DNA of 64,000 nucleotides from Paucibacter sp. DJ2R-2 (GTDB lineage: Bacteria; Pseudomonadota; Gammaproteobacteria; Burkholderiales; Burkholderiaceae_C). Numbering within the stretch: position 1 is the first letter of the stretch; each line of letters opens with the position of its first letter. Shown here one piece after another: positions 1,860-12,729 of the stretch. The position numbers and the translations under genes are program-made. The DNA lies in contig NZ_JAJIRT010000009.1 of NCBI RefSeq assembly GCF_025717675.1, positions 1-64,000 on the forward strand, read 5' to 3'. Below the pieces are notes generated by a model. The model ran no database searches, had not been told where the DNA came from, and saw only the letters and a list, made by a program, of their open reading frames with translations.

Positions 1860-2903
1860 ATGGGCCTGATGGATTTCATCAAGAAGCAGTTCATAGACAT
1901 CCTCCAGTGGACCGAGGACGGTGATGGCACGCTGGCCTGGCGCTTCCCCATGGCCGATATGGAAATCCAGTACGGCGCCTCGCTGACGGTGCGAGAGTCG
2001 CAGCTGGCCGTGTTCGTCAACGAGGGCAAGGTGGCCGATGTCTTCGGGCCCGGCACCCACACCCTGAACACCCAGACCTTGCCGGTACTGACCTACCTGA
2101 AGAACTGGGACAAGCTCTTCGAGTCGCCCTTCAAGAGCGATGTCTATTTCTTCAGCACCCGCCAGCAGGTGGACCAGCGCTGGGGCACGCAGCAGCCGGT
2201 GACCATCCGCGACAAGGACTTTGGTGCCGTGCGCCTGCGCGCCTTCGGCAACTTCGTCTACCGCGTGGCCGATGCGAAACTCTTCCACACCGAGATCTCC
2301 GGCACGCGCGAGCGCTACACCGTGCAAGACCTGGACGGTCAGCTGCGCGGCCTGATGCTGCAACACATCAGCGATGCGGTGGCCCAGAGTGGCATCCCCT
2401 TCCTGGACCTGGCGGCCAACCAGATCGAGTTTGCGCGCCAGCTGCAAGCAGCCACGGCGCCCGAGTTCGAGAAGATCGGTCTCAAGCTCGAAGGCGTGAC
2501 CCTGCAGAACGTCTCCCTGCCGGAAGAGCTGCAAAAAATCCTCGACCAGAAGATCGGCATGGGCATGATCGGCCAGAACATGGGCCAGTTCATGCAGTAC
2601 CAGACCGCGCAAGCCATCCCCAAACTGGCCGAAGGCGTGGGCCAAGGCGGTGGCGGTGGTGTGGCCGGCGACGCCATGGGCCTGGGTGCTGGCCTGGCCA
2701 TGGGCCAGGTGCTGGCCCAGCAGCTGCAAGGCGGCCTGGCCGCTGCCGCTACTCCTGTGGTGGCCGCAGCCGCACCCGCTGTGCAAACGGCCGATGACAT
2801 CGTGCTGCTGCTGGAAAAGCTGGGTGACCTCAAGACCAAGGGCATCCTGACCGACGAGGAATTCGCCGCCAAGAAAGCCGACTTGCTGAAAAAACTGAGC
2901 TGA
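1860..2903 (+). CDS. SPFH-domain protein with C-terminal SHOCT domain (YdjI/virion-core-like)
   Basis: A 347-residue protein. Residues 1-250 look like the SPFH/Band-7 family often annotated as YdjI-like or virion core protein, with an N-terminal MGLMDFIKKQFIDILQW helix and FGPGTHTLNTQTLPVLT. After a Gly/Ala-rich linker (about 255-305), the C-terminal 35 residues form a SHOCT motif (LLEKLGDLKTKGILTDEEF), a short oligomerisation or membrane-protein-associated module. SPFH proteins scaffold membrane microdomains. A strong AAGGAG at 1846-1851 supports the ATG at 1860. It is followed 13 bases later by the DUF4178 gene and then DUF350, so these three probably form a membrane-associated unit. Biochemical function unknown. 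Confidence 0.85.
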   Translation: MGLMDFIKKQFIDILQWTEDGDGTLAWRFPMADMEIQYGASLTVRESQLAVFVNEGKVADVFGPGTHTLNTQTLPVLTYLKNWDKLFESPFKSDVYFFSTRQQVDQRWGTQQPVTIRDKDFGAVRLRAFGNFVYRVADAKLFHTEISGTRERYTVQDLDGQLRGLMLQHISDAVAQSGIPFLDLAANQIEFARQLQAATAPEFEKIGLKLEGVTLQNVSLPEELQKILDQKIGMGMIGQNMGQFMQYQTAQAIPKLAEGVGQGGGGGVAGDAMGLGAGLAMGQVLAQQLQGGLAAAATPVVAAAAPAVQTADDIVLLLEKLGDLKTKGILTDEEFAAKKADLLKKLS

Positions 2904-2916
2904 AGCAGCGCGCGTC

Positions 2917-4566
2917 TTGACATCCGACACGACCCCGTCCGGCGCGCCTCAGCGCCGCTGGCAGGCGGCCTGCCCGAATTGCGGCGCCACGGTGGAGTTC
3001 GCTTCGGCGGCCTCCGCCAGCGCTGTTTGCAGCTATTGCCGCAGCAGTCTCTTGCGCGAGGGCGATGCCCTGCGCAAGATCGGACTCAGCGCCGAACTGA
3101 TCGAAGACTATTCGCCGCTGCAGATCGGCGCCAGCGGGCGCTACGCCGGCGCGCCCTTCACGGTCGTCGGCCGCCAACAGATCGCCTATGCCGAGGGCAG
3201 CTGGAACGAATGGCATGTGCTGTTTGATGGCGGCGCCGCCGGGCCGCGCTCCGGCTGGCTGGCCGAGGACAACGGCAGCTATGTCATGGCCTTCGAGGCG
3301 CCGCTGTCCGAAGCCGCGCCCAAAGCTCAGGAGCTGATCCTCGACCGCATCCTGCAACTGGCCGGCCAGCGCTGGACGGTGGCGGCCGTCACCCTATGTC
3401 ATCTGAGCGCCGCCCAGGGCGAACTGCCACGTCCACCCGTGCTCGGGGCCGAGCGGCAGTATCTGGTGGCCGAGCTGCGCGGGCCCGGCAATGAAGTCGG
3501 CAGCCTGGATTTCAGCCCCAGCCTGCAAGCGAGCAGCGCGGCGCCGATCTGGTCGCTGGGCCGCGCTATCCGCCTGGACGCCATGGCCATGCAAGGCCTG
3601 CGCGAAGAGGCCAGCAGCAACAAAGACCTGAAATCACGCAGCCTGGAATGCCCCAGCTGCGGCGCCGCCCTGACGCCCAGCCTCAGCAGCACCAAATCCA
3701 TCGTCTGCGGCCAGTGCCATGCGGTGGTGGACATCTCTCAAGGCGCGGGGGCCGATCTCGAACACTATGCCCAGAACAACGGCATGGAGCCACAGCTGCG
3801 TCTGGGCAGCACGGGCATGCTGCAGACCGAGACCGGCCAGGCCATCAGCTGGCAGGTGGTGGGCTACCAAGAGCGCTGTGACCTGCCCGAGAGCAGCGAG
3901 GACGAGCAGACCTTCTGGCGCGAGTACCTGCTCTACAACAAGATCGAAGGCTTTGCCTTACTGGTCGACACCGAGGAAGGCTGGAGCCTGGTGCGGCCCC
4001 TGACCGGCGCCCCGGTGAGCAGCCGCGGCGAGCGCATCGACTGGGGCGGCAAGAGCTACAAAAAGCGCTGGACCTACCAGGCCAAGGTCACCTATGTGCT
4101 GGGCGAGTTCTACTGGCAGGTCAGCCGCGAGCAGCGTGCCCTGGTCAGCGACTACGAAGGTCAGGGCGAGGCGCGGCAGATGCTGCTGAGCCGCGAGCAG
4201 ACCGACAACGAGGTGGTCTGGAGCCTCGGGCGCAAGCTCGACGCCGCCGTGGTGGCTCGCGCGTTCAAACTGGCACCCGAGCGCGCTGCGGCCCTGGGCC
4301 GCGATGCCAGCAGCCTCAGTGACGGCGGCGGCCTGCTGCGCAAGATCGTCATTGCTGTCTTCATCCTGCTGGTACTGGTCTTGCTGCTGCGCGCCTGCAG
4401 CCGGGACGACTGTCAGGCCTACAAGGACAGCTACGGCGAAGCCAGCGCCGAGTACCAGCAATGCCGCCGCAGCGGCGCTCGCATCAGTTCGGGCGGAGGT
4501 TCGTACGGAGGCTCATCGGGCGGCTCATACGGTGGCTACAGCAGCGGTGGCGGCGGCCACAAATGA
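2917..4566 (+). CDS. DUF4178 membrane protein with two zinc ribbons
   Basis: A 549-residue protein with an internal duplication. Each half has a zinc ribbon (Cys19/22/38/41 and Cys245/248/264/267) followed by a beta-rich DUF4178 region with conserved Trp and Tyr residues (WHVLFDGG in the first, YLLYNKIEGFALL in the second). A single membrane helix at about 476-494 is followed by a short Cys-containing segment and a Gly/Ser/Tyr-rich tail. No ATG exists near the N-terminus; the TTG at 2917, 13 bases after the SPFH stop, is the best start, with no strong Shine-Dalgarno, which suggests coupling to the upstream gene. DUF4178 has no known biochemical role. Its genes often sit near SPFH, DUF350 and polyamine genes, as here. 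Confidence 0.85.
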   Translation: MTSDTTPSGAPQRRWQAACPNCGATVEFASAASASAVCSYCRSSLLREGDALRKIGLSAELIEDYSPLQIGASGRYAGAPFTVVGRQQIAYAEGSWNEWHVLFDGGAAGPRSGWLAEDNGSYVMAFEAPLSEAAPKAQELILDRILQLAGQRWTVAAVTLCHLSAAQGELPRPPVLGAERQYLVAELRGPGNEVGSLDFSPSLQASSAAPIWSLGRAIRLDAMAMQGLREEASSNKDLKSRSLECPSCGAALTPSLSSTKSIVCGQCHAVVDISQGAGADLEHYAQNNGMEPQLRLGSTGMLQTETGQAISWQVVGYQERCDLPESSEDEQTFWREYLLYNKIEGFALLVDTEEGWSLVRPLTGAPVSSRGERIDWGGKSYKKRWTYQAKVTYVLGEFYWQVSREQRALVSDYEGQGEARQMLLSREQTDNEVVWSLGRKLDAAVVARAFKLAPERAAALGRDASSLSDGGGLLRKIVIAVFILLVLVLLLRACSRDDCQAYKDSYGEASAEYQQCRRSGARISSGGGSYGGSSGGSYGGYSSGGGGHK

Positions 4567-4602
4567 ACCCGCGACAAGGCAAGACTTCAGGAGAACACAC
4601 CC

Positions 4603-4830
4603 ATGGAACATGCATTTGAATGGCTCAAACCCGGCATCGTGCTGGGCTCCATCCTCTACGCCCTGATCGGCGTGCTGGTGTTCTGGATCAGCTTTGTCAT
4701 CATCGACAAGCTGACGCCCTACAAGCTCTGGGAGGAGATCGTCGAACACAGAAACATCGCCCTGGCCATCGTGGTCGGGGCGATGTGCATCTCGATCGGC
4801 CAGATCGTGGCTGCGGCAATTCACGGCTGA
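4603..4830 (+). CDS. DUF350 small membrane protein
   Basis: A 75-residue protein with two membrane helices (about 11-35 and 50-70) separated by a DKLTPYKLWEEI segment typical of DUF350 (YjfL-like). The second helix carries GAMCISIGQIVAAAI. Many DUF350 proteins have two such repeats; this one has a single unit. A CAGGAG at 4588-4593 positions the ATG at 4603 well. It follows the DUF4178 gene by 36 bases in the same direction. E. coli yjfL, also DUF350, lies in a cluster with a PspA homologue and a glutathionylspermidine-synthetase-like gene, so association with membrane and polyamine genes recurs. Role unknown. Confidence 0.85.
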   Translation: MEHAFEWLKPGIVLGSILYALIGVLVFWISFVIIDKLTPYKLWEEIVEHRNIALAIVVGAMCISIGQIVAAAIHG

Positions 4831-4873
4831 TGGGCGCGGCTGGCTCCGGCCAGACCGGCCCATCACTGGAGAT

Positions 4874-5554
4874 TCAGGCGCTGCGGCGGCGACGCACCAA
4901 GCCAACAGCCATCAGGGCGACCAAGGTCAAGGCCAGCGACTGCGGTTCCGGCACATGGGTGGCGGTGGCTTGCACGCCATTGATGAAACTGGTGCGGTCA
5001 TAGTTGCCCAGATTCCGGCTTCGGAATTCCAAAGCACCGGAGCCGCTGGCGGTGAAGTCAAGATTGCGCTGACTCCACTCCTGGCCGACCTCGGTTGAAA
5101 AGCTGCCCAGAATCGTGCCGGCAAACAAAACATCATAGGTTTGCACACCCGAAGACCAATTGCTGCGGCCGGCATCAAACCAGCTCAAAGCCACTTGCGT
5201 GCCCGCATCCAGGGTCAGGTTTTGCGACAGCGTGGCGCCGTCCATCTGTAGGCCCACCACAAAGTTGCCCAAGCCGGACTGACCGTTTGTCAAGCTCGAC
5301 GGGTTCCCCCAGGGGCCGCTGCTGGCCCCGATCACAACGGCATAGCCCGAAGTATTCCAGTCGGCCAAGGTGCAACCCGCGTGCAAGCTTGTGTAGCAAT
5401 AGTCGCCGTTAGGGCCGCCCATGGTCTGAATTTCGAAGCCACCGTTCTTCACGACAGAGGTCACAGGGCCAGCCTGCACCGCAGCAGCCGACATCAGCGT
5501 CGCGGCAAAACACAAAGCGCTGAGGGAAGAGGTCGAAATCATCTGCCTTTTCAT
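4874..5554 (-). CDS. PEP-CTERM sorted exoprotein
   Basis: A 226-residue secreted protein: a Sec signal peptide (residues 1-28, ending VQA) followed by a beta-sandwich-like domain starting VVKNGGFE, the pattern of DUF642/galactose-binding-like extracellular domains, with two cysteines (YCYTSLHAGC) that could form a disulphide. The C-terminus carries VPEPQSL, a hydrophobic helix and RRRRSA, the PEP-CTERM exosortase signal. The ATG at 5554 gives a complete signal peptide; a second Met four codons in is an alternative. It is transcribed against the flanking polyamine-related genes, so it is probably unrelated to them or a later arrival. Function unknown. Confidence 0.87.
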   Translation of the reverse strand: MKRQMISTSSLSALCFAATLMSAAAVQAGPVTSVVKNGGFEIQTMGGPNGDYCYTSLHAGCTLADWNTSGYAVVIGASSGPWGNPSSLTNGQSGLGNFVVGLQMDGATLSQNLTLDAGTQVALSWFDAGRSNWSSGVQTYDVLFAGTILGSFSTEVGQEWSQRNLDFTASGSGALEFRSRNLGNYDRTSFINGVQATATHVPEPQSLALTLVALMAVGLVRRRRSA

Positions 5555-5806
5555 GGGACGTTCCAGGTAGTGAAGAAGTTGTGGCCGCAGTGTCTATGCA
5601 AAGAGCAAGACCTGACCCCTTGGGCCGCCCTGTCACAGTGACGCAAATCACGGCCCGGCTTGTCAGCCGCTGAAAACCCCCTCATCCGAGTGCCATTCAT
5701 AGAGCTCTCATGGCGGCCCCGGTGCAGAGACAGGGCAAGCACAATGCAGCTGCCGATCGGATTCGGACACGCAGGCAAGTCGCCGCCATCGGTTAACCTC
5801 GCGGCC

Positions 5807-7402
5807 ATGCCTTCCCTTGCTGACCCTCCCGCAACGCCCGTCGATTCAGAGCCCGCCGTCGGCCGCATTTCCCTGCACGAGGTCTTGCTTCTGGCCAGCG
5901 TCTTTGTGGTGGCAGCCTGCGGTCTGGTCTACGAACTGGCTGCCGGGGCCTTGGCCAGTTATCTGCTCGGTGACTCGGTGCTGCAGTTCTCCACCATCAT
6001 CGGTACCTATCTGTTTGCCATGGGCCTGGGCTCCTGGCTGAGCCGCTATGTCGAGCGCCAGCTGATCGCGCAGTTCCTGAAGATCGAGCTGCTGGTGGGG
6101 CTGGTCGGCGGCCTGATGCCGGCCGCCCTCTTCCTGGCTCACAGCCTGCTGCCACCGGGCCATCAGGCCGCGTTTCGCGTGCTGCTCTATGGCCTGGTGC
6201 TGCTGGTCGGGGCCCTGGTCGGGCTGGAGATTCCGCTGGTCATGCGCATCCTCAAGAAGCAGTTCCGCCACCGCTATGCCTTGCGCGATCTGGTCTCACA
6301 GGTGCTGACCTTCGACTACCTTGGCGCCCTGGTGGTGGCCCTGGCTTTTCCCTTGCTGCTGGTGCCGCATCTGGGCCTGGTGCGCACCGGGCTGTTCTTC
6401 GGCCTGCTCAATGTGGGCGTGGCGATCTGGGCGCTCTACCTGTTCCGCAGCGAGCTGCGCGCCTGGCGCGGCCATGCCCTGGCCTGCGGCTTCAGCATGC
6501 TCCTGTTGCTGGTCGCCATGCTCCTGGCCGACCGGCTCAACACCTGGGCCGAAGACCGCTTCTACGGCGAACACATCATCGTGCGCGAGAGCAGCGACTA
6601 CCAGCGCGTGGTGGTGACCTCGGGCCAGGCCGGCACACGCCTGTTTCTGAACGGCAATCTGCAGTTCCATTCGCGCGACGAATACCGCTACCACGAAGCC
6701 CTGGTCCACCCCGCCATGGCCGGCCACGGCGCGCCCAAGCGGGTGCTGGTGCTGGGCGGCGGCGACGGCATGGCCGTGCGCGAGGTGCTGCGCTACCCCA
6801 GCGTCGAGCGTGTCACCCTGGTCGAGCTGGACCCGCACATGACCCGGCTCTTCTCCACCCTCCCCTTGCTGCGCCAGCTCAACCGCGACGCCTTGCTCAG
6901 CCCCAAGCTGAAGATAGTCAATGCCGACGCCTTTGGCTGGCTGGAAGAACAGCCGGCCGACGAACACTTCGACGTCATCGTCATCGACTTCCCCGACCCC
7001 AGCAATTTCGCGCTCGGCAAGCTCTACAGCAGCAGCTTCTACCGACTGATCGACCAGCGCCTCAATGCCGGCGGCTACGCCGTGGTGCAGACCACCTCGC
7101 CCCTGATCGCGCGGCGCAGCTTCTGGACCGTGGTGACCACCTTGGAGTCGGCCGGACTCACGACCACGCCTTACCACGCCCATGTACCCAGCTTCGGCGA
7201 ATGGGGCTTTGTGCTGGCCGGGCGCCGGCCCTGGGCGATGCCGCGACAGTTGCCCGATGGCTTGCGTTTCCTGAGCCCAGCCGGGCTACCGGCCTTGCTC
7301 GATTTCCCGCCCGATATGGCGCGGCTGCCGACCGAAGTGAACCGCCTGTCCAACCAGATTCTGGTGCACGAGTTCGAGGCCGAATGGGGTCAAGTGCATT
7401 GA
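5807..7402 (+). CDS. Membrane-embedded spermidine synthase homologue (aminopropyltransferase family)
   Basis: A 531-residue fusion. Residues about 22-250 contain roughly seven membrane helices (the first ends in CGLVYELAAGALASYLLG), and residues about 260-490 form a spermidine-synthase fold: YQRVVV, the nucleotide-binding VLVLGGGDGMAVREVLRY, the acidic VTLVELDP, and DVIVIDFPDPSN with the catalytic-loop Asp. The family transfers aminopropyl from decarboxy-SAM to an amine, but many membrane-fused members have unproven acceptors. The ATG at 5807 puts the first helix near the N-terminus; an upstream ATG at 5744 is possible. The stop overlaps the next gene's ATG by one base, so the oxidase is translationally coupled. 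Decarboxy-SAM could come from speD at 12358. Confidence 0.88.
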   Translation: MPSLADPPATPVDSEPAVGRISLHEVLLLASVFVVAACGLVYELAAGALASYLLGDSVLQFSTIIGTYLFAMGLGSWLSRYVERQLIAQFLKIELLVGLVGGLMPAALFLAHSLLPPGHQAAFRVLLYGLVLLVGALVGLEIPLVMRILKKQFRHRYALRDLVSQVLTFDYLGALVVALAFPLLLVPHLGLVRTGLFFGLLNVGVAIWALYLFRSELRAWRGHALACGFSMLLLLVAMLLADRLNTWAEDRFYGEHIIVRESSDYQRVVVTSGQAGTRLFLNGNLQFHSRDEYRYHEALVHPAMAGHGAPKRVLVLGGGDGMAVREVLRYPSVERVTLVELDPHMTRLFSTLPLLRQLNRDALLSPKLKIVNADAFGWLEEQPADEHFDVIVIDFPDPSNFALGKLYSSSFYRLIDQRLNAGGYAVVQTTSPLIARRSFWTVVTTLESAGLTTTPYHAHVPSFGEWGFVLAGRRPWAMPRQLPDGLRFLSPAGLPALLDFPPDMARLPTEVNRLSNQILVHEFEAEWGQVH

Positions 7403-9012
7403 TGGCGCTGCGTCGTCGCGAACTGATGCTGGCAGCTCTGGCCGGTGGCGGCAGCGCACTCTTGCAAGGCTGCCAGGCACAGGCACCCGATTTGGCCAGC
7501 CTGCCCGGCGGCTGGCTGGGCGCGAGCGCCGAACGCGGTCACCGCCTGCGCCAACCCCTGCCCGCGGGCAGCAGCCACCACAGCTTGCCGACACAGCGAC
7601 GCCAGGTCTTGATCGTCGGCGGCGGCATCGCCGGCCTGGGCTGCGCACGCGGCCTCAGCCAGGCCGGCATTGACGATTTCGCGCTGCTGGAGCTGGAAGA
7701 CGAAGTCGGTGGCAACAGCCGAGGCCACCGTATGGGCGGCATGGCCTGCCCCATGGGCGCCCATTACTTGCCTCTGCCGGGGCCACATGCGCGCGAGGTC
7801 TACCAGTTGCTCGAGGAGCTGGGCCTGGTTCACCAGGAGCTCGGCCGCCCCGTCTGGGATGAACGTCAGCTCTGCCACAGCCCGCAGGAGCGCCTGTACT
7901 TCCAAGGCCAGTGGCTAGAGGGCCTGTTGCCGCCGGCGCGCAGCCCAGCGGCCAAGGCTCAGCTGCAGCAATTCGAACAGGCGGTGGAACGCGCGCAGCG
8001 CGAACTCGGCTTTGCCATGCCCAGCCATCGCCTGCCCTGGACCGCCGGCCATGCTGCACTCGACGCTCAGACTTTTGCCGAATGGTTGAACCAGCATGGG
8101 CTCGATGACCCGCAGCTGCGTTGGTACTTGGATTACTGCTGCCGCGACGATTTCGGCGCCGGGCCTGAAGCCGCCTCGGCCTGGGCTGGCCTGCACTATT
8201 TCGCCAGCCGCCACGGCTTCCATCCGCCGGGCTCGGACACCTCGGAGCGCGAGCCCGTGCTGACCTGGCCGCAGGGCAACGCATTTCTCAGCGAAGCCAT
8301 CGCGGCCCCCTTGCAGCCGCAGATTGAGCGCGGGCGCACGGTGCTGCATGTCGAGACCGGCAAGCATGAGATCACGCTGCGGGTCTGGAACGAGGCCGCA
8401 CAGCGCGAAGAGCGATGGCAATGCCAGCAACTGGTCCTGGCGACACCGCTGTTCGTTGCACAGCGCCTGCTGGGCCAGGCCGTTTCAGCCCTGAACGATG
8501 CCGTCGCATTGCAGCGTCATGCCCCTTGGTTGGTCGCCAATCTGCAGCTCAAAGGCCCCATGCTGCAAGGCCTGGGCGTGGCGCCGTCTTGGGACAATGT
8601 CATCTTCGGCAGTCAGGCGCTCGGCTATGTGGACGCCATGCACCAGAGTCTGAAGCCTGTGAGCGGGCCGACCGTGATCAGCGCCTATTGGGCCTTGCCG
8701 CAAGCTCGCCGCGGCGAGCTTCTGCGCTCGGACTGGCACCACTGGCTGACGCAAGTCTTGGCCGAATTGACCACCGTTCACCCCGATCTTCCCGAACTCT
8801 TGCAGCGGGCCGATTTGGTGCGCTGGGGCCATGCGATGAGCATTCCAAGCCCGGGCCTGCGCGGCTCGCGCGCCCTACAGGCCCTGCGACGACCGCAGGG
8901 GCGGATTCACTTCGCACACAGCGATTTGGCGGGCTACTCGGTGTTTGAAGAGGCCTACACCCGCGGCTGCGAAACTGCGGTGACGGTTGCGAAATTTGCA
9001 TCCATCAAGTAA
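7402..9012 (+). CDS. FAD-dependent amine-oxidase-like protein, lipoprotein or Tat-type leader
   Basis: A 536-residue flavoprotein. The N-terminus (RRRELMLAALAGGG, then LLQGC) resembles a signal with arginines followed by a lipobox-like Cys, suggesting export and lipid anchoring, possibly by Tat. The FAD-binding motif VLIVGGGIAGLGCARGL lies near residue 70 and is followed by an acidic ELEDEVGGNSRG typical of amine oxidases and phytoene-desaturase-like enzymes. The C-terminal FAD motif is in IHFAHSDLAGYSVFEEAYTR. The ATG at 7402 shares one base with the stop of the spermidine-synthase homologue. Its position suggests it oxidises the aminopropylated product or another polyamine outside the cytoplasm; that substrate is inferred, not shown. 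Confidence 0.82.
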   Translation: MALRRRELMLAALAGGGSALLQGCQAQAPDLASLPGGWLGASAERGHRLRQPLPAGSSHHSLPTQRRQVLIVGGGIAGLGCARGLSQAGIDDFALLELEDEVGGNSRGHRMGGMACPMGAHYLPLPGPHAREVYQLLEELGLVHQELGRPVWDERQLCHSPQERLYFQGQWLEGLLPPARSPAAKAQLQQFEQAVERAQRELGFAMPSHRLPWTAGHAALDAQTFAEWLNQHGLDDPQLRWYLDYCCRDDFGAGPEAASAWAGLHYFASRHGFHPPGSDTSEREPVLTWPQGNAFLSEAIAAPLQPQIERGRTVLHVETGKHEITLRVWNEAAQREERWQCQQLVLATPLFVAQRLLGQAVSALNDAVALQRHAPWLVANLQLKGPMLQGLGVAPSWDNVIFGSQALGYVDAMHQSLKPVSGPTVISAYWALPQARRGELLRSDWHHWLTQVLAELTTVHPDLPELLQRADLVRWGHAMSIPSPGLRGSRALQALRRPQGRIHFAHSDLAGYSVFEEAYTRGCETAVTVAKFASIK

Positions 9013-9172
9013 CAAAACAAGAAAAGGTAGCAATATTCAAGACTCAACGACTGCATGCTGGCACCTGCACCGCAGGCCACGACACCGCAGCGAAGCCTGG
9101 TTAGAGTGCGAAGCATCTCCCGAGGGGGAGCTTGATTTCAACCGCAACTTTTCCCTGAAAGCAGTCCACACC

Positions 9173-9691
9173 ATGAACAAATTCATCGCCGCCGCCGCCC
9201 TGGCCCTGATCGCCACCACCGCCTCTGCCGCCGACAGCAATTTCTACGTCGGTGGAGACATCGGCTCGAGCAAGTTCAAAGCCGATGGCGATTCCCGCTC
9301 TAAGACGGGCTTCGGCGCCACCCTGGGTTACACCCTGAACCCCAATGTGGCCTTCGAACTGACGGCACGCCGCCTGGGCAGCTTCAAGGAAGACGGCAGC
9401 AAGCTCAGCGTCAATGCACTGCAAGCCTCGGTGCTGGGCATCGCTCCGATCACCAACGAGTTCTCGATCTACGGCCGCCTGGGCATGGGCCGCAACTCCC
9501 TGGACTTGAGCGAAGGCGCTGTCAGCGCTTCCGTGCACAAGAACAAGGCCCTGGTGGGCATCGGCGCCAGCTACCAAGTGGCCAAGAACGTCGCACTGCG
9601 CGGCGAGTACACCAATCTGGGCAACAACAAGGTGGGCGACACCAGCGTCAAGATGCACCAGTTCAACGTCGGCATGACTTACGCCTTCTGA
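9173..9691 (+). CDS. Small outer-membrane beta-barrel protein (OmpA/OmpW-like), copy 1
   Basis: A 172-residue protein with a clear signal peptide (MNKFIAAAALALIATTASAA) and a mature part of alternating aromatic/polar strands ending in GMTYAF; the terminal Phe is the usual outer-membrane insertion signal. The opening NFYVGGDIGSSKFK and the GFGATLGYTLNPNVAFEL strand match the eight-stranded OMP_b-brl family. The second copy at 11596 keeps the same signal layout and strand order. Genes for an oxidase-like protein and SoxR lie between them. A hairpin (9111-9133) lies in the leader, and a strong terminator follows at 9740. Ligand or role unknown. Confidence 0.85.
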   Translation: MNKFIAAAALALIATTASAADSNFYVGGDIGSSKFKADGDSRSKTGFGATLGYTLNPNVAFELTARRLGSFKEDGSKLSVNALQASVLGIAPITNEFSIYGRLGMGRNSLDLSEGAVSASVHKNKALVGIGASYQVAKNVALRGEYTNLGNNKVGDTSVKMHQFNVGMTYAF

Positions 9692-9739
9692 GCCCGCCGG
9701 CCTTGAGGCCGGTTCGCCGGCTCCTCTGAATGACAAGCA

Positions 9740-9768
9740 AGCCCCGCCACAGCGGGGCTTTTCCTTTT
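9740..9768 (+). terminator. Rho-independent terminator after barrel copy 1
   Basis: AAGCCCCGC, CACA loop, GCGGGGCTT, followed by TTCCTTTTT. It sits between the convergent stops of the barrel gene and the questin-oxidase-like gene and closes the rightward transcript. Confidence 0.85.
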
Positions 9769-9775
9769 TCAGGAA

Positions 9776-10804
9776 TCAGCGCAAGACCAGCGCCGCAGCC
9801 TGGAGATAACGGGCATCGCCATAGACTGCCATTTCCTCGCGGCAGGCGTGGACGAGCTTGATCGTGTGGTCGTCGCGGGCTTGCGTGGCAGCCTCAGCCA
9901 ACTCGCTCCAGCTCAGGTCCTCTGTTCGGGCCAGCGCCGTCGCAGTCGATCGAGGCTGGACACGCCCCGCCATATAGGCCGCGACAAAAGCCTCGCCCAG
10001 CAGATTCTGAACGGCCGGGTCAGAGCGCAAGGCCTCCGGCAACCAAGGCAAGAGCAGGCGCAGGGCGCGCAGACCGGTGATCATGTGCAAGACGGTGAAG
10101 TTGGCGCTGTCCAGGTAGTAGCCCAATGCCAAATGCGCCAATTCAGCGAGGCGCTGCTCCAGCGAAGCAGCGGGTGCCAGACCATGGGCCAATTCGGCAT
10201 ACAAGGGCATCTGTGTCGCCGCTTCCATGCGCAAGAAGATCAAGGGCGCCTCACTGCGCCAGGACTTGGCACCGTCGACCAGCGCTTGTGACCAGCCCTC
10301 CTGCTGACGCAGCGAAGCGGGTCCGGCAGCCGGTGCCGGCAAGACTTGCCATCGGCAGGCCCAGTAGGCCAAGGCCGAGGCCAGTTCCGCAGCGTGGCCG
10401 GACTCGAGTGCATGAGCGGTACGGATGGCACCGTGAAAAGCCACGGCCGAGACACCGGGCAGCAGCACCGGCAAAACCTGGCGCAGCAGCACGTCGCGCC
10501 CCTGCTCGGCGAGAGCAGCCGCGAAACTGTGCCGCAGATCTGCAAAGGCCTCGTAGCGACCCAGTGCCGCTTGCCAGTCAGGCAAGACTCGGCCCTCGCC
10601 CGGGCTGCGGCGGCCCTCGAAGCGCTCGGTGTAGCTTGCGAAGAAGTTTTCGATGCGAACCTCATCGGCGCCCAGGCTGTGCAGGGCCTGCAGAGCCATG
10701 GGCAGGTGGCTGCTCAACTGCTGTCCATACTCGGGCGGGAAAGCAAGGCTGCGGTCCAGCCAGGCATGGAGCTGTTTGCTGCTGGAAACGGTGGAACTGG
10801 ACAT
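9776..10804 (-). CDS. Questin-oxidase-like protein (DUF4243 family)
   Basis: A 342-residue, mostly helical protein with the family pattern: EYGQQLSSHLPMALQAL with LGADE near residues 25-50, HGAIRTAHAL in the middle, and a late segment NFTVLHMITGLRALRLLLPW. Fungal questin oxidase acts on an anthraquinone by ring cleavage; bacterial members are uncharacterised. The ATG at 10804 was chosen because it follows a likely promoter at 10838-10868 with a SoxR-type operator inside the spacer. The divergent neighbour encodes SoxR. The setting suggests a response to redox-active quinone-like compounds, possibly their detoxification; this is inference. Confidence 0.75.
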   Translation of the reverse strand: MSSSTVSSSKQLHAWLDRSLAFPPEYGQQLSSHLPMALQALHSLGADEVRIENFFASYTERFEGRRSPGEGRVLPDWQAALGRYEAFADLRHSFAAALAEQGRDVLLRQVLPVLLPGVSAVAFHGAIRTAHALESGHAAELASALAYWACRWQVLPAPAAGPASLRQQEGWSQALVDGAKSWRSEAPLIFLRMEAATQMPLYAELAHGLAPAASLEQRLAELAHLALGYYLDSANFTVLHMITGLRALRLLLPWLPEALRSDPAVQNLLGEAFVAAYMAGRVQPRSTATALARTEDLSWSELAEAATQARDDHTIKLVHACREEMAVYGDARYLQAAALVLR

Positions 10805-10837
10805 GGTGGAAACGCTCGGAAGTGATGCAAGGCTCCT

Positions 10838-10868
10838 ATACTGAAAGTTCAAGTGAACTTGAAGTCAA
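10838..10868 (-). promoter_or_regulatory. SoxR-type promoter/operator for the questin-oxidase-like gene
   Basis: Reading leftward, a -35 TTGACT (10863-10868) and a weak -10 CAGTAT (10838-10843) are separated by 19 bases, the long spacer typical of MerR-family-activated promoters. The spacer holds the dyad TTCAAGTGAACTTGAA (10848-10863), close to the enterobacterial sox box core CAAGTTAACTTG. The soxR gene begins 33 bases to the right. The -10 is only a 3-of-6 match, as expected for an activator-dependent promoter. Confidence 0.72.
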
Positions 10869-10900
10869 GCGCTTTTTCGATCAAGTCGATCAGGATTCAT

Positions 10901-11470
10901 ATGCCAAGTAAATCCGCCACCAAGCTGCCCATCGACACCGCTCAGGCACGACCGGATCCGCGCGCCAAGGCCCCTGCCGCGGCGAGCGATCGGCTACCCA
11001 TCGGGGAACTGGTGCGGCGCAGCGGCGTGGCGGCCAGTGCCCTGCGCTTCTATGAAGACGCCGGGCTGATGCAAAGCACACGCAGCGGCAGCGGTCGGCG
11101 CCAGTACGCGCGCGCCGATCTGCGTCGTCTGGCCTTTGTCCGTGCGGCCCAGGCGGTCGGTTTGAGCCTGGAGCAGATCCGCGCAGCTCTCGCCCAGCTG
11201 CCCGATGGCCGCACACCGACCGTGGCCGACTGGGAACACCTGTCTGCCTCCTGGCGGCCCATGCTGGACCAACGCATCGCCGAGCTCACGCGCTTGCGCG
11301 ACACGCTGAGCTCATGCATAGGCTGCGGCTGCCTGTCCTTGAGCAAATGCGGTCTCTACAACCCCGATGACCAGGCCGCTCGGCATGGCGCGGGCGCCCG
11401 CTACTTGCTCGGCGACAGTGCCCCGGCGGCCATCCAACAAAAGCCGATGCGCCGCAGGCGCGCTGGGTAA
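10901..11470 (+). CDS. soxR: Redox-sensing MerR-family activator SoxR
   Basis: A 189-residue MerR-type regulator: a winged-helix DNA-binding domain (IGELVRRSGVAASALRFYED, residues about 34-53), a dimerisation helix, and the iron-sulfur motif CIGCGC-LSLSK-C with Cys139, 142, 144 and 150, the same spacing as E. coli SoxR. It binds a [2Fe-2S] cluster that is oxidised by redox-cycling compounds, switching on genes whose promoters have an over-long spacer. The ATG at 10901 leaves an unusual 30-residue basic/Ala-Pro-rich N-terminal extension. It is divergent from the questin-oxidase-like gene, and a matching operator lies between them. No soxS is visible, consistent with direct regulation of effectors outside enterobacteria. 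Confidence 0.93.
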   Translation: MPSKSATKLPIDTAQARPDPRAKAPAAASDRLPIGELVRRSGVAASALRFYEDAGLMQSTRSGSGRRQYARADLRRLAFVRAAQAVGLSLEQIRAALAQLPDGRTPTVADWEHLSASWRPMLDQRIAELTRLRDTLSSCIGCGCLSLSKCGLYNPDDQAARHGAGARYLLGDSAPAAIQQKPMRRRRAG

Positions 11471-11545
11471 TCTTTCCATCAAACCTTGATGGCTCGATAC
11501 AACAGCCGAGAAAGGACAAGGGGAAACCCTTGATAGGATGCGCGC

Positions 11546-11568
11546 CTCTCTCCGGAGGGAGAGTTTTT
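11546..11568 (+). terminator. Hairpin plus U-run between soxR and barrel copy 2
   Basis: CTCTCTC, loop CGGA, GGGAGAG, then TTTTT ends only 27 bases before the ATG at 11596. It can be the soxR terminator, but the space left for a promoter of the next gene is very small, so it could also act as a leader attenuator. Confidence 0.5.
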
Positions 11569-11595
11569 GTGATCCTAGAAAAGAGTTCCATTTCC

Positions 11596-12126
11596 ATGAA
11601 GAAGATTTTTGCCCTGGCCGCTCTGGCCTTCGCCGCTTCCACCGCTTGCGCCGCTGACAACAGCTGGTATGTGGGTGGCGACATTGGTTCGAGCCGCTTC
11701 AAGATCGAAGGCGATTCGGGCTCCAAAACCGGTTTCGGCGCCAGCGTTGGCTATCAGCTGAACACCAATGTGGCTTTCGAGGCTTCTGTGCGTCGTCTGG
11801 GTTCGGACACCGAAGACGGCCTCAAGCTGTCGGTCAACGCGCTGCAAATTTCGGCACTGGGTATCGCCCCGCTGAACAAGGAGTTCTCGCTGTTCGCACG
11901 CCTGGGCGTGAGCCGCAATTCGCTGGACTTCACGGTCAGCAATATTGACTTGTCTTTGCACAAGACCAAGGCCTTCTTCGGCCTGGGCGGCGCGTACCAG
12001 TTCGACAAGGCTCTGAGCCTGCGCGCTGAGTATGTGAACCTGGGCAACAACAAGATCAGCGCTGGCGGCGAAAGCGCCGAGTTCAAGATTCACCAGTTCA
12101 ACCTGGGCCTGAACTACGCCTTCTGA
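11596..12126 (+). CDS. Small outer-membrane beta-barrel protein, copy 2
   Basis: A 176-residue paralogue of the protein at 9173: signal peptide MKKIFALAALAFAASTACAA, opening NSWYVGGDIGSSRFK, central ALQISALGIAPLNKEFSLFARLG, and a C-terminal LNYAF with the outer-membrane Phe. The two copies share strand order and most turn residues but differ throughout, so the duplication is not recent. It lies downstream of soxR, behind the hairpin at 11546, and is closed by the terminator at 12155. Having both copies next to a redox regulator and a questin-oxidase-like gene suggests a shared envelope role, which is only inference. Confidence 0.85.
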   Translation: MKKIFALAALAFAASTACAADNSWYVGGDIGSSRFKIEGDSGSKTGFGASVGYQLNTNVAFEASVRRLGSDTEDGLKLSVNALQISALGIAPLNKEFSLFARLGVSRNSLDFTVSNIDLSLHKTKAFFGLGGAYQFDKALSLRAEYVNLGNNKISAGGESAEFKIHQFNLGLNYAF

Positions 12127-12154
12127 TCTTCACCGGTCCGAACGCACCCATAAG

Positions 12155-12180
12155 AAGCCCCGCAGCCGCGGGGCTTTTTT
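12155..12180 (+). terminator. Rho-independent terminator after barrel copy 2
   Basis: AAGCCCCGC, short AGCC loop, GCGGGGCTT followed by a run of T. A classic intrinsic terminator 29 bases after the stop codon. Confidence 0.9.
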
Positions 12181-12234
12181 GTTTGTGAGCCGCACCTTGA
12201 GAGACTGCGAGCGGCACAAAGCGGAACCCTAAAT

Positions 12235-12315
12235 GCAACCACAGAGGCACGGAGGCACAGAGCTAAAACCAATTCAGCTTTGTATTTCTCTGTGCCTCCG
12301 TGCCTCTGTGGTTGC
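12235..12315. repeat. Perfect 28-bp inverted repeat
   Basis: Arms at 12235-12262 and 12288-12315 are exact reverse complements (28 of 28) around a 25-base loop. The arm contains an internal near-repeat, AGAGGCACGGAGGCACAGAG. It lies between the convergent stops of the barrel gene and speD, downstream of an intrinsic terminator. It resembles dispersed palindromic elements rather than a simple terminator, since no T-run follows. Confidence 0.85.
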
Positions 12316-12357
12316 CTTTTGTATTCGGCTGCTTTGCGCCGATTCCAGCCGACCTCG

Positions 12358-12729
12358 TCAGCCGCGCACCAAACGCTGTTCGCGCCGTTCGCCTGGGTCA
12401 AAGGCATCACAAAGCATCTGCATCAGCCGTTCGGCCGCGGCGCTGTTGTCTCCCGCCAGGTTGCAGACATACACGTCGAGCGTGACGCCGCCCAGCTCGG
12501 GCCAGGTGTGAATGGCCAGATGCGATTCGGCCAGCAGAACCACGCCCGTGATGCCGCTCTGCTCACAGCCAGGCGCGACCTCAAAACGATGAAACAGCTC
12601 GACCACAGCGCCCAAACCAGCCGCCTGTACGGCATCGCGGCACAGGCGACCGAGAGACTCTGGGTCCAGCATCAACGGGGACTGCGGGTCGCAGCCACGC
12701 AAATCGGCAGTCAGATGCAAGCCCTGCAC
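12358..12729 (-). CDS. speD: S-adenosylmethionine decarboxylase proenzyme SpeD
   Basis: A 123-residue class 1B AdoMet decarboxylase. The self-processing site is present in AESHLAIHTWPE: cleavage before Ser69 would form the pyruvoyl cofactor, with His74 and Cys89 at the spacing of the Thermotoga enzyme (63/68/83). It makes decarboxy-SAM, the aminopropyl donor for spermidine synthases. No in-frame ATG exists at the start; GTG at 12729 has a GAGG six bases ahead. The stop of moaD is 15 bases upstream, so speD is the last gene of the alaA-hom-thrC-moeA-moaD run. The only aminopropyltransferase homologue in the window is the membrane-fused one at 5807. Confidence 0.93.
   Translation of the reverse strand: MQGLHLTADLRGCDPQSPLMLDPESLGRLCRDAVQAAGLGAVVELFHRFEVAPGCEQSGITGVVLLAESHLAIHTWPELGGVTLDVYVCNLAGDNSAAAERLMQMLCDAFDPGERREQRLVRG

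Follow-up and report, generated by a model that had tools for sequence, protein, structure and literature searches.

The closest described systems to the one considered here are the operons treated by Ravi et al. 2024 (PMC11237479). In the operon section of that paper, a fusion of a seven-transmembrane (7-TM) domain to a spermidine-synthase-like domain is reported with DUF350 and DUF4178 in the second operon group, whose main form has a CesT/Tir-PspA dyad, and a band-7/SHOCT variant, which has two transmembrane segments between band-7 and SHOCT, is given with S-adenosylmethionine (AdoMet) decarboxylase and polyamine oxidase under the third (ATP-grasp) group. A lipoprotein, Ctha_1186, also figures in the operons of that paper. 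The section proposes polyamine sensing or an aminopropylation tied to membrane structure, cites Li et al. 2019, and is silent on the membrane side of the catalytic domain and on any twin-arginine translocation (Tat) leader. We analyzed a related locus from Paucibacter sp. DJ2R-2, at positions 1,860 to 12,729 of a 64,000-nucleotide stretch (contig NZ_JAJIRT010000009.1, positions 1 to 64,000, forward strand), which we call the window. The locus encodes an SPFH/Band-7 protein with SHOCT, a DUF4178 protein, a DUF350 protein, the 7-TM fusion, here termed the membrane aminopropyltransferase (mAPT), a flavin adenine dinucleotide (FAD) oxidase and the AdoMet decarboxylase SpeD. These genes are a co-inherited module, SpeD included, even where speD is unlinked to the rest.

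Like the second group of Ravi et al., the window has the 7-TM/spermidine-synthase-like fusion with DUF350 and DUF4178 alongside; unlike its main form, it has a band-7/SHOCT gene in the place of PspA and DUF2170, and its DUF350 protein is half length, whereas that of Ravi et al. is described with eight transmembrane (TM) segments. It matches the band-7/SHOCT variant by its Band-7 and SHOCT protein, its AdoMet decarboxylase and its oxidase; because that variant falls under the ATP-grasp group, the operon section is ambiguous on the exact six-gene set. No PspA or DUF2170 was found among the ten cluster genes scanned with Pfam, a search that did not extend to the rest of the window genome. Most of this association has been published before, as has the idea of aminopropylation. 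What is added here is the strength of the co-inheritance, the argument from unlinked speD, donor residues kept intact beside a changed likely acceptor side, the Tat leader on the oxidase, and charge and cysteine evidence, dependent on cut-offs, for a periplasmic transferase domain. A literature search, with subscription journals largely outside it, returned no identified acceptor and no reported topology.

We also compared four gamma-type loci (L129 to L132). All four contain mAPT, and in the two scanned with Pfam, L129 and L130, DUF350, PspA and DUF2170 all score above their cut-offs. A DUF4178-like gene in L130 reaches 17.3 bits, below the cut-off of 25, and no family was found for its counterpart in L129. 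With these matches L129 and L130 correspond to the PspA form of Ravi et al. SPFH, oxidase and SpeD were not found within the 12-18 kb of sequence examined for these loci. A link between DUF350 and Pseudomonas PA4774 (speE2), which is given as a 349-amino-acid thermospermine synthase, was considered and rejected, as the text match to 'DUF350' was to DUF3509 (this point, and those on Pelagibacter and Lampropedia below, have their sources among PMC11107197, PMC12730115, PMC7857480 and PMC5015223).

Co-inheritance was computed directly in a family sample of 120 genomes from 119 genera, the window genome included, 66 of which contain mAPT. The oxidase was present in all 66 mAPT genomes versus 1 of the 54 others, the latter a fragment in genome G127 (for each genome, the 12 best candidates were scored). 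DUF350 was present in 65 of the mAPT genomes versus none of the others above cut-off, SPFH/Band_7_1 (PF13421, E at most 1e-20) in 65 versus 5, DUF4178 in 64 versus none, and SpeD in 65 versus 8. The two mAPT genomes without DUF4178, G194 and G204, are assembled in about 430 and 420 contigs. Fisher values for these co-occurrences were computed without accounting for shared ancestry. The joint presence of SpeD and mAPT is not a matter of linkage alone: among the 65 that have both, they lie within 20 kb of each other in 32 and on different contigs in 18. The sequence-only reading, made without database searches, had put forward that these families recur together in other genomes; the counts above and the synteny described below bear this out.

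That reading had also allowed that an ordinary spermidine synthase elsewhere might account for all use of SpeD. The window genome has one full Spermine_synth match, which is mAPT, and no match to an ordinary spermidine synthase. Two further Spermine_synth homologues score 28 bits; where GGGDG would be expected they carry GLGGGS and GLGAGA, and so lack the aspartate that we take to mark use of decarboxylated AdoMet (dcAdoMet), which makes such use by them unlikely. Across the family sample, soluble speE was called at 150 bits or more or in a frame of at most 300 amino acids, a rule that leaves out Spermine_synth homologues of 36-66 bits. By this rule 12 of the 120 genomes have soluble speE, 7 of them together with mAPT, and 58 have mAPT and SpeD without it, so that in those 58 no user of dcAdoMet other than mAPT is apparent. 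A polyamine-independent role for SpeD has reportedly been proposed before, by Li et al. in 2019 (Biochem J 476:2579), for class 1b SpeD with an MFS-SpdSyn membrane fusion and DUF350 nearby; an E. coli speE mutant is said not to have been complemented.

Two groups of genomes in the family sample deserve separate mention. In G127, the oxidase fragment lies on one contig (C79) with a partial Spermine_synth match, a picture that would fit joint decay of the module. In G135, G136, G227 and G228, the matches to speD and soluble speE are near each other, in open frames of equal length, which suggests fusion of SpeD to SpeE of the kind described in Pelagibacter.

Beyond the family, in a class-level sample of 114 genomes, DUF4178 exceeded its cut-off in 3, each time near mAPT on the same contig. 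Eight genomes had mAPT at E < 1e-50, and among these G001 and the four gamma-type genomes gave no DUF4178 match. The full gene set belongs to part of the mAPT family; outside that part the partners vary. In one class-level locus (L135, genome G039, positions 4229-7418), TelA (toxic anion resistance) and PF10112 genes lie between SPFH and mAPT, a further association with envelope stress.

We examined gene order in related loci found by a scan with an alignment of eight mAPT sequences (A1), which confirmed 552 loci; the best 80 of these were used. These 80 span Burkholderiales, Acidobacteria, Gemmatimonadetes, Nitrospinota and Solitalea, and include Elusimicrobia, Fibrobacteres, Leptospiraceae and Oligoflexia. 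Among the 59 with at least 6 kb of upstream sequence, SPFH was near mAPT in 43, DUF4178 in 50 and DUF350 in 46. With length and coverage filters against shadow frames, the oxidase was found at most 2.5 kb after mAPT in 56 of the 70 loci with at least 1.9 kb downstream, and 34 of the 56 loci for which both flanks were available had all four partners next to mAPT. SpeD was present within the available flanks of 36 of the 80. The speD gene is located between SPFH and DUF4178 in loci including L095-L100 and L102, and directly 3' of the oxidase in L092, L093 and L105. In several loci, as in the window, the SPFH-DUF4178-DUF350 block is kilobases away from the mAPT-oxidase block. An apparent oxidase-SpeD fusion in L113 was ruled out: the frame crosses a run of N, so the locus is evidence of adjacency only.

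The mAPT gene of the window (5660..7402, +) has three candidate starts, TTG 5660, ATG 5744 and ATG 5807. The sequence-only reading described it as a spermidine-synthase domain fused to about seven membrane helices, and both parts hold: Pfam Spermine_synth matches at 114.3 bits, and seven hydrophobic segments (5882..6529) recur in all 64 aligned sequences, followed by the aminopropyltransferase domain (6554..7399). The protein scores above the cut-off of the NCBIfam polyamine aminopropyltransferase model NF002956 (678.5 vs 472 bits, profile positions 17-520 of 522) and below that of speE, TIGR00417 (137.6 vs 249.55 bits). By score it is a member of NF002956/PRK03612, whose family name is an annotation.

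In the transferase domain, GGGDG, D322, D354, D374, D377 and Y275-H276 are invariant in 64 of 64 sequences (numbering of alignment A2, where residue 1 is base 5867). The donor and catalytic residues Q246, D271, Y275, H276, GGGD300, D322, D354, D374 and D377 match those of soluble aminopropyltransferases, in 31 to 34 of 34 homologues each, or 32 to 34 when D271 is left aside. Against the same 34, mAPT differs at positions 376, 380, 381, 385, 410, 415 and 443-445; its specific features are a loop at about 376-385, T410, A415, F443-G444-E445 and a conserved extra C-terminal tail. We take the differing positions to lie on the acceptor side. The best solved relatives (27 sequences found) are thermospermine synthase and polyamine aminopropyltransferases. 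Those soluble enzymes (6bq2, 7xif and 1uir) have the catalytic domain and donor motifs in common with mAPT, but the match covers its catalytic part alone, and the loop and C-terminal tail differ. Because the donor residues are kept and the likely acceptor side is changed, we infer that mAPT is an active aminopropyltransferase with another acceptor.

Within the mAPT helices, Y22, E23, E121, D150, Y151 and N182 are invariant in all 64 sequences and may plausibly form a cation path. Using hand-set TM segments, we counted 0.175, 0.187 and 0.275 lysines plus arginines per residue in loops 2, 4 and 6, versus 0.006, 0.006 and 0.047 in loops 1, 3 and 5; loops 2+4+6 are the richer in 64 of 64 sequences. 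The 20 residues after TM7 have a net charge of -2.4, and TM7 itself is hydrophobic (mean best window 1.90). This charge bias would place the N terminus inside and the catalytic domain outside. A TopPred-like script applied to the full protein predicted the C terminus outside (C-out) in 50 of 64 sequences at default cut-offs, and 12 of the 14 default predictions with the C terminus inside (C-in) had counted one segment within the C-terminal tail. On nine E. coli control proteins, whose topologies we took as given, the script at default placed the C-terminal side correctly in 8, with basS wrong. The catalytic domain is also poor in cysteine, with 0.14 per 100 amino acids and none in 43 of 64 sequences, versus 1.84 in 22 class-level soluble homologues and 0.92 in 12 same-family ones, 2 of which have none. 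The catalytic domain is somewhat more likely to face the periplasm than the cytosol, to judge from these features and in a manner that depends on the cut-off. The sequence-only reading had placed only the oxidase step outside; the charge bias, with the same dependence, would put the transferase there too.

The oxidase gene (7402..9012, +; 536 amino acids) shares one base with mAPT, between the stop TGA 7400-7402 and the start ATG 7402-7404, as had been noted from the letters alone. Its leader (7402..7473) had been described as lipobox-like, which is correct for the LQGC motif ending at Cys24 but incomplete, since a twin-arginine motif (RRR) and a hydrophobic stretch precede it. A twin arginine followed by a hydrophobic stretch occurs in 59 of 64 sequences, and a lipobox-like cysteine in addition in 50 of 64; these counts include the window and derive from 67 rows, 3 without an anchor, with a false anchor in L050 counted as a miss. 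Because the leader features are kept in 59 of 64, export of the oxidase by Tat, as the sequence-only reading had proposed in general terms, is well supported at the level of sequence, as is, in most cases, anchoring in the membrane.

The enzyme class of the oxidase is less specific than the proposed name of amine oxidase. The PF01593 match (71.9 vs a 19.8-bit cut-off) spans positions 1-442 of 443, and PF01593 also holds non-amine enzymes. A search with the single sequence found no solved chain at 1e-8, and a profile matched solved amine oxidases at about 50 bits, mainly over the FAD part. Among the NCBIfam models it scores highest with HpnE (hydroxysqualene dehydroxylase), at 45.2 bits, far below the cut-off of 283. 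The stretch WLVAN380L has no conserved lysine where, judged by eye, MAO/PAO-type amine oxidases presumably have their active-site lysine, the hidden Markov model (HMM) alignments ending before it. On these matches the name 'amine oxidase' is a superfamily-level label only.

Pfam confirms the SPFH, DUF4178 and DUF350 genes that had been read as standing in a row (1860-4830, +). The SPFH protein (1860..2903, +; 347 amino acids) matches Band_7_1 at 257.6 bits and, at its C terminus, SHOCT at 32 bits. The two-DUF4178 protein (2917..4566, +; 549 amino acids, TTG start) matches DUF4178 at 82.7 bits in two stretches and ends in a hydrophobic helix; its four CxxC pairs, which vary in none of 38 aligned sequences, we read as two probable zinc ribbons, for which the Pfam matches fall below cut-off. 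The DUF350 protein (4603..4830, +; 75 amino acids) belongs to its family at 53.1 bits, above cut-off, but covers only profile positions 8-66 of 133 and so is not a full PF03994 domain; by eye it has two hydrophobic segments. SpeD (12358..12729, -; 123 amino acids, class 1b size), placed correctly on the other strand, is the sole AdoMet_dc match found in the window genome (87.6 bits). It lies narrowly above the TIGR03330 cut-off (77.8 vs 75.65 bits), and its processing site E68 S69 H70 and H74 are invariant in 22 aligned sequences.

Variants of these proteins occur among the related loci. The DUF4178 proteins of L085, L093, L103, L105 and L108 have, by eye, an extra C-terminal stretch flanked by two hydrophobic segments, which may be a periplasmic domain; no Pfam family matched that of L105. 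In the Solitalea locus L109 (6128-13202), the DUF4178-DUF350 pair is present in tandem duplicate, and SPFH was not found in that locus.

Other genes are interspersed with the module in the window. A PEP-CTERM-like gene (4874-5554, -; Pfam 17.7 bits, below the cut-off of 20.7) separates DUF350 from mAPT, and speD is 3.3 kb beyond the oxidase. In the latter interval are two similar OmpA-like beta-barrel outer-membrane protein genes (9167-9691, + and 11530-12126, +) and, between them, a questin-oxidase-like gene (9776-10852, -) and a MerR regulator (10853-11470, +). In iterated HMMER searches of the 80 loci, the PEP-CTERM gene had no homologues and the others had homologues in a single locus, L035; this absence or rarity rules them out as parts of the module. 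We also clustered all neighboring frames of at least 70 amino acids in the 80 loci (E 1e-12) and inspected the best 60 clusters, three by Pfam scan and the remainder by eye and by their spread over loci; no additional family held a constant position. The largest cluster, found in 22 of the 80 loci, is of PAS-GGDEF-EAL type (one member, from L088, scanned) and lies 0-9 kb off on either strand: it convergently abuts mAPT in the Rhodocyclales-like loci L083, L086, L088 and L090 and is at variable distance in 18 more. The two other scanned clusters are malic enzyme and an aminopeptidase.

The explanation that we tentatively favor, with confidence just short of even, is a dedicated module for aminopropylation in the envelope. 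SpeD would make dcAdoMet in the cytosol, and this would serve mAPT rather than spermidine synthesis. Within the inner membrane or beside it, mAPT would move the aminopropyl group onto an amine other than putrescine; its catalytic domain is probably periplasmic, and the 7-TM domain, with its three invariant acidic residues, would admit dcAdoMet. The Tat-exported, membrane-anchored FAD oxidase would then act on the product at the same face. SPFH, DUF4178 and DUF350 would make up a cytosolic and membrane scaffold or regulator, in which SPFH would take the place held by PspA and DUF2170 in gamma-type operons.

Several points weigh against this explanation. dcAdoMet is cytosolic, and we know of no export of it. 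In seven wider class-level mAPT stretches, the oxidase occurs in one (L134), SPFH in one (L135) and SpeD in none, so mAPT would work elsewhere without an adjacent oxidase. The sequence-only reading is partly supported: its families form one set in which SpeD goes with mAPT, and outside the family the oxidase is often missing. Of the 73 SpeD genomes in the family sample, 3 have neither kind of aminopropyltransferase; in two of the three, G216 (a partial match) and G222, SPFH is present as well. The topology depends on cut-offs: at four other cut-off pairs, the full mAPT is C-out in 37, 54, 44 and 60 of 64 sequences, and the membrane part alone has seven TM helices and C-out in 51 (default), 62, 51, 29 and 24. 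The script gave the right helix number for only 4 of the 9 controls at default and the wrong C-terminal side for 1-2 at other settings, and the 64 mAPT sequences are relatives, so that counts over them are not independent. Cysteine depletion is supporting rather than decisive, because SPFH, presumably cytosolic, has no cysteine and the oxidase has 1.05 per 100 amino acids.

These points bear most directly on the side of the membrane. In the boldest form of the module, the 7-TM domain would carry dcAdoMet out, a periplasmic transferase would modify an outer-leaflet or periplasmic amine, and the co-anchored Tat oxidase would edit the product; we think this unlikely, though far from negligible, and know of no transfer of an AdoMet-derived group outside the cytosol and no dcAdoMet exporter. 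The same module could instead operate with a cytosolic transferase domain that uses dcAdoMet at its site of synthesis, the 7-TM domain or DUF350 moving the product, a lipid or an amine, out to the oxidase. This arrangement, which has a substantial minority chance of being right, is favored by the lack of a leader in the alignment of SpeD, the source of dcAdoMet, by solved relatives that share the transferase fold but not the membrane domain, and by strict cut-offs that give six TM helices and C-in in 32 and 25 of the 64 sequences; the positive charges of loops 2, 4 and 6, the hydrophobic TM7 and the depletion of cysteine relative to homologues speak for the outside.

Other explanations concern what the enzymes do. 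If mAPT were an ordinary membrane-tethered spermidine or polyamine synthase coupled to uptake or export, the oxidase would be a catabolic enzyme for polyamines. The NCBIfam name and the best solved relatives fit such a synthase, but its likely acceptor-side positions are unlike those of the soluble enzymes, it falls below the speE cut-off, 7 of the 66 mAPT genomes have soluble speE as well, and complementation of an E. coli speE mutant reportedly failed (Li et al. 2019); we regard this account as distinctly improbable. Spermidine is reported in the Comamonadaceae-linked genome paper on Lampropedia cohaerens, which agrees with an ordinary synthase, and in view of that one report we do not claim that the group lacks spermidine. 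The oxidase might, alternatively, be a FAD enzyme that resembles desaturases or dehydroxylases and acts on a lipid, in which case the module would modify a lipid in two steps, an idea that is compatible with either membrane side for the transferase and that we hold to be doubtful. The HpnE match, the confinement of the amine oxidase matches mostly to the FAD part, and the lack of a conserved lysine in WLVAN380L (its position judged by eye) all suit it; against it are the nearly full-length fit to PF01593, a family whose non-amine members weaken the point, and the fact that aminopropylation would yield a natural amine substrate.

The module, under our favored explanation of aminopropylation in the envelope, bears on the role of AdoMet decarboxylase in bacteria that lack a spermidine synthase. 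If the transferase does act outside the cytosol, both the transfer of an AdoMet-derived group there and a dcAdoMet exporter would, to our knowledge, be new. Once the acceptor is identified, a new covalent modification at the bacterial envelope would be defined, and DUF4178 and DUF350 would gain a function.

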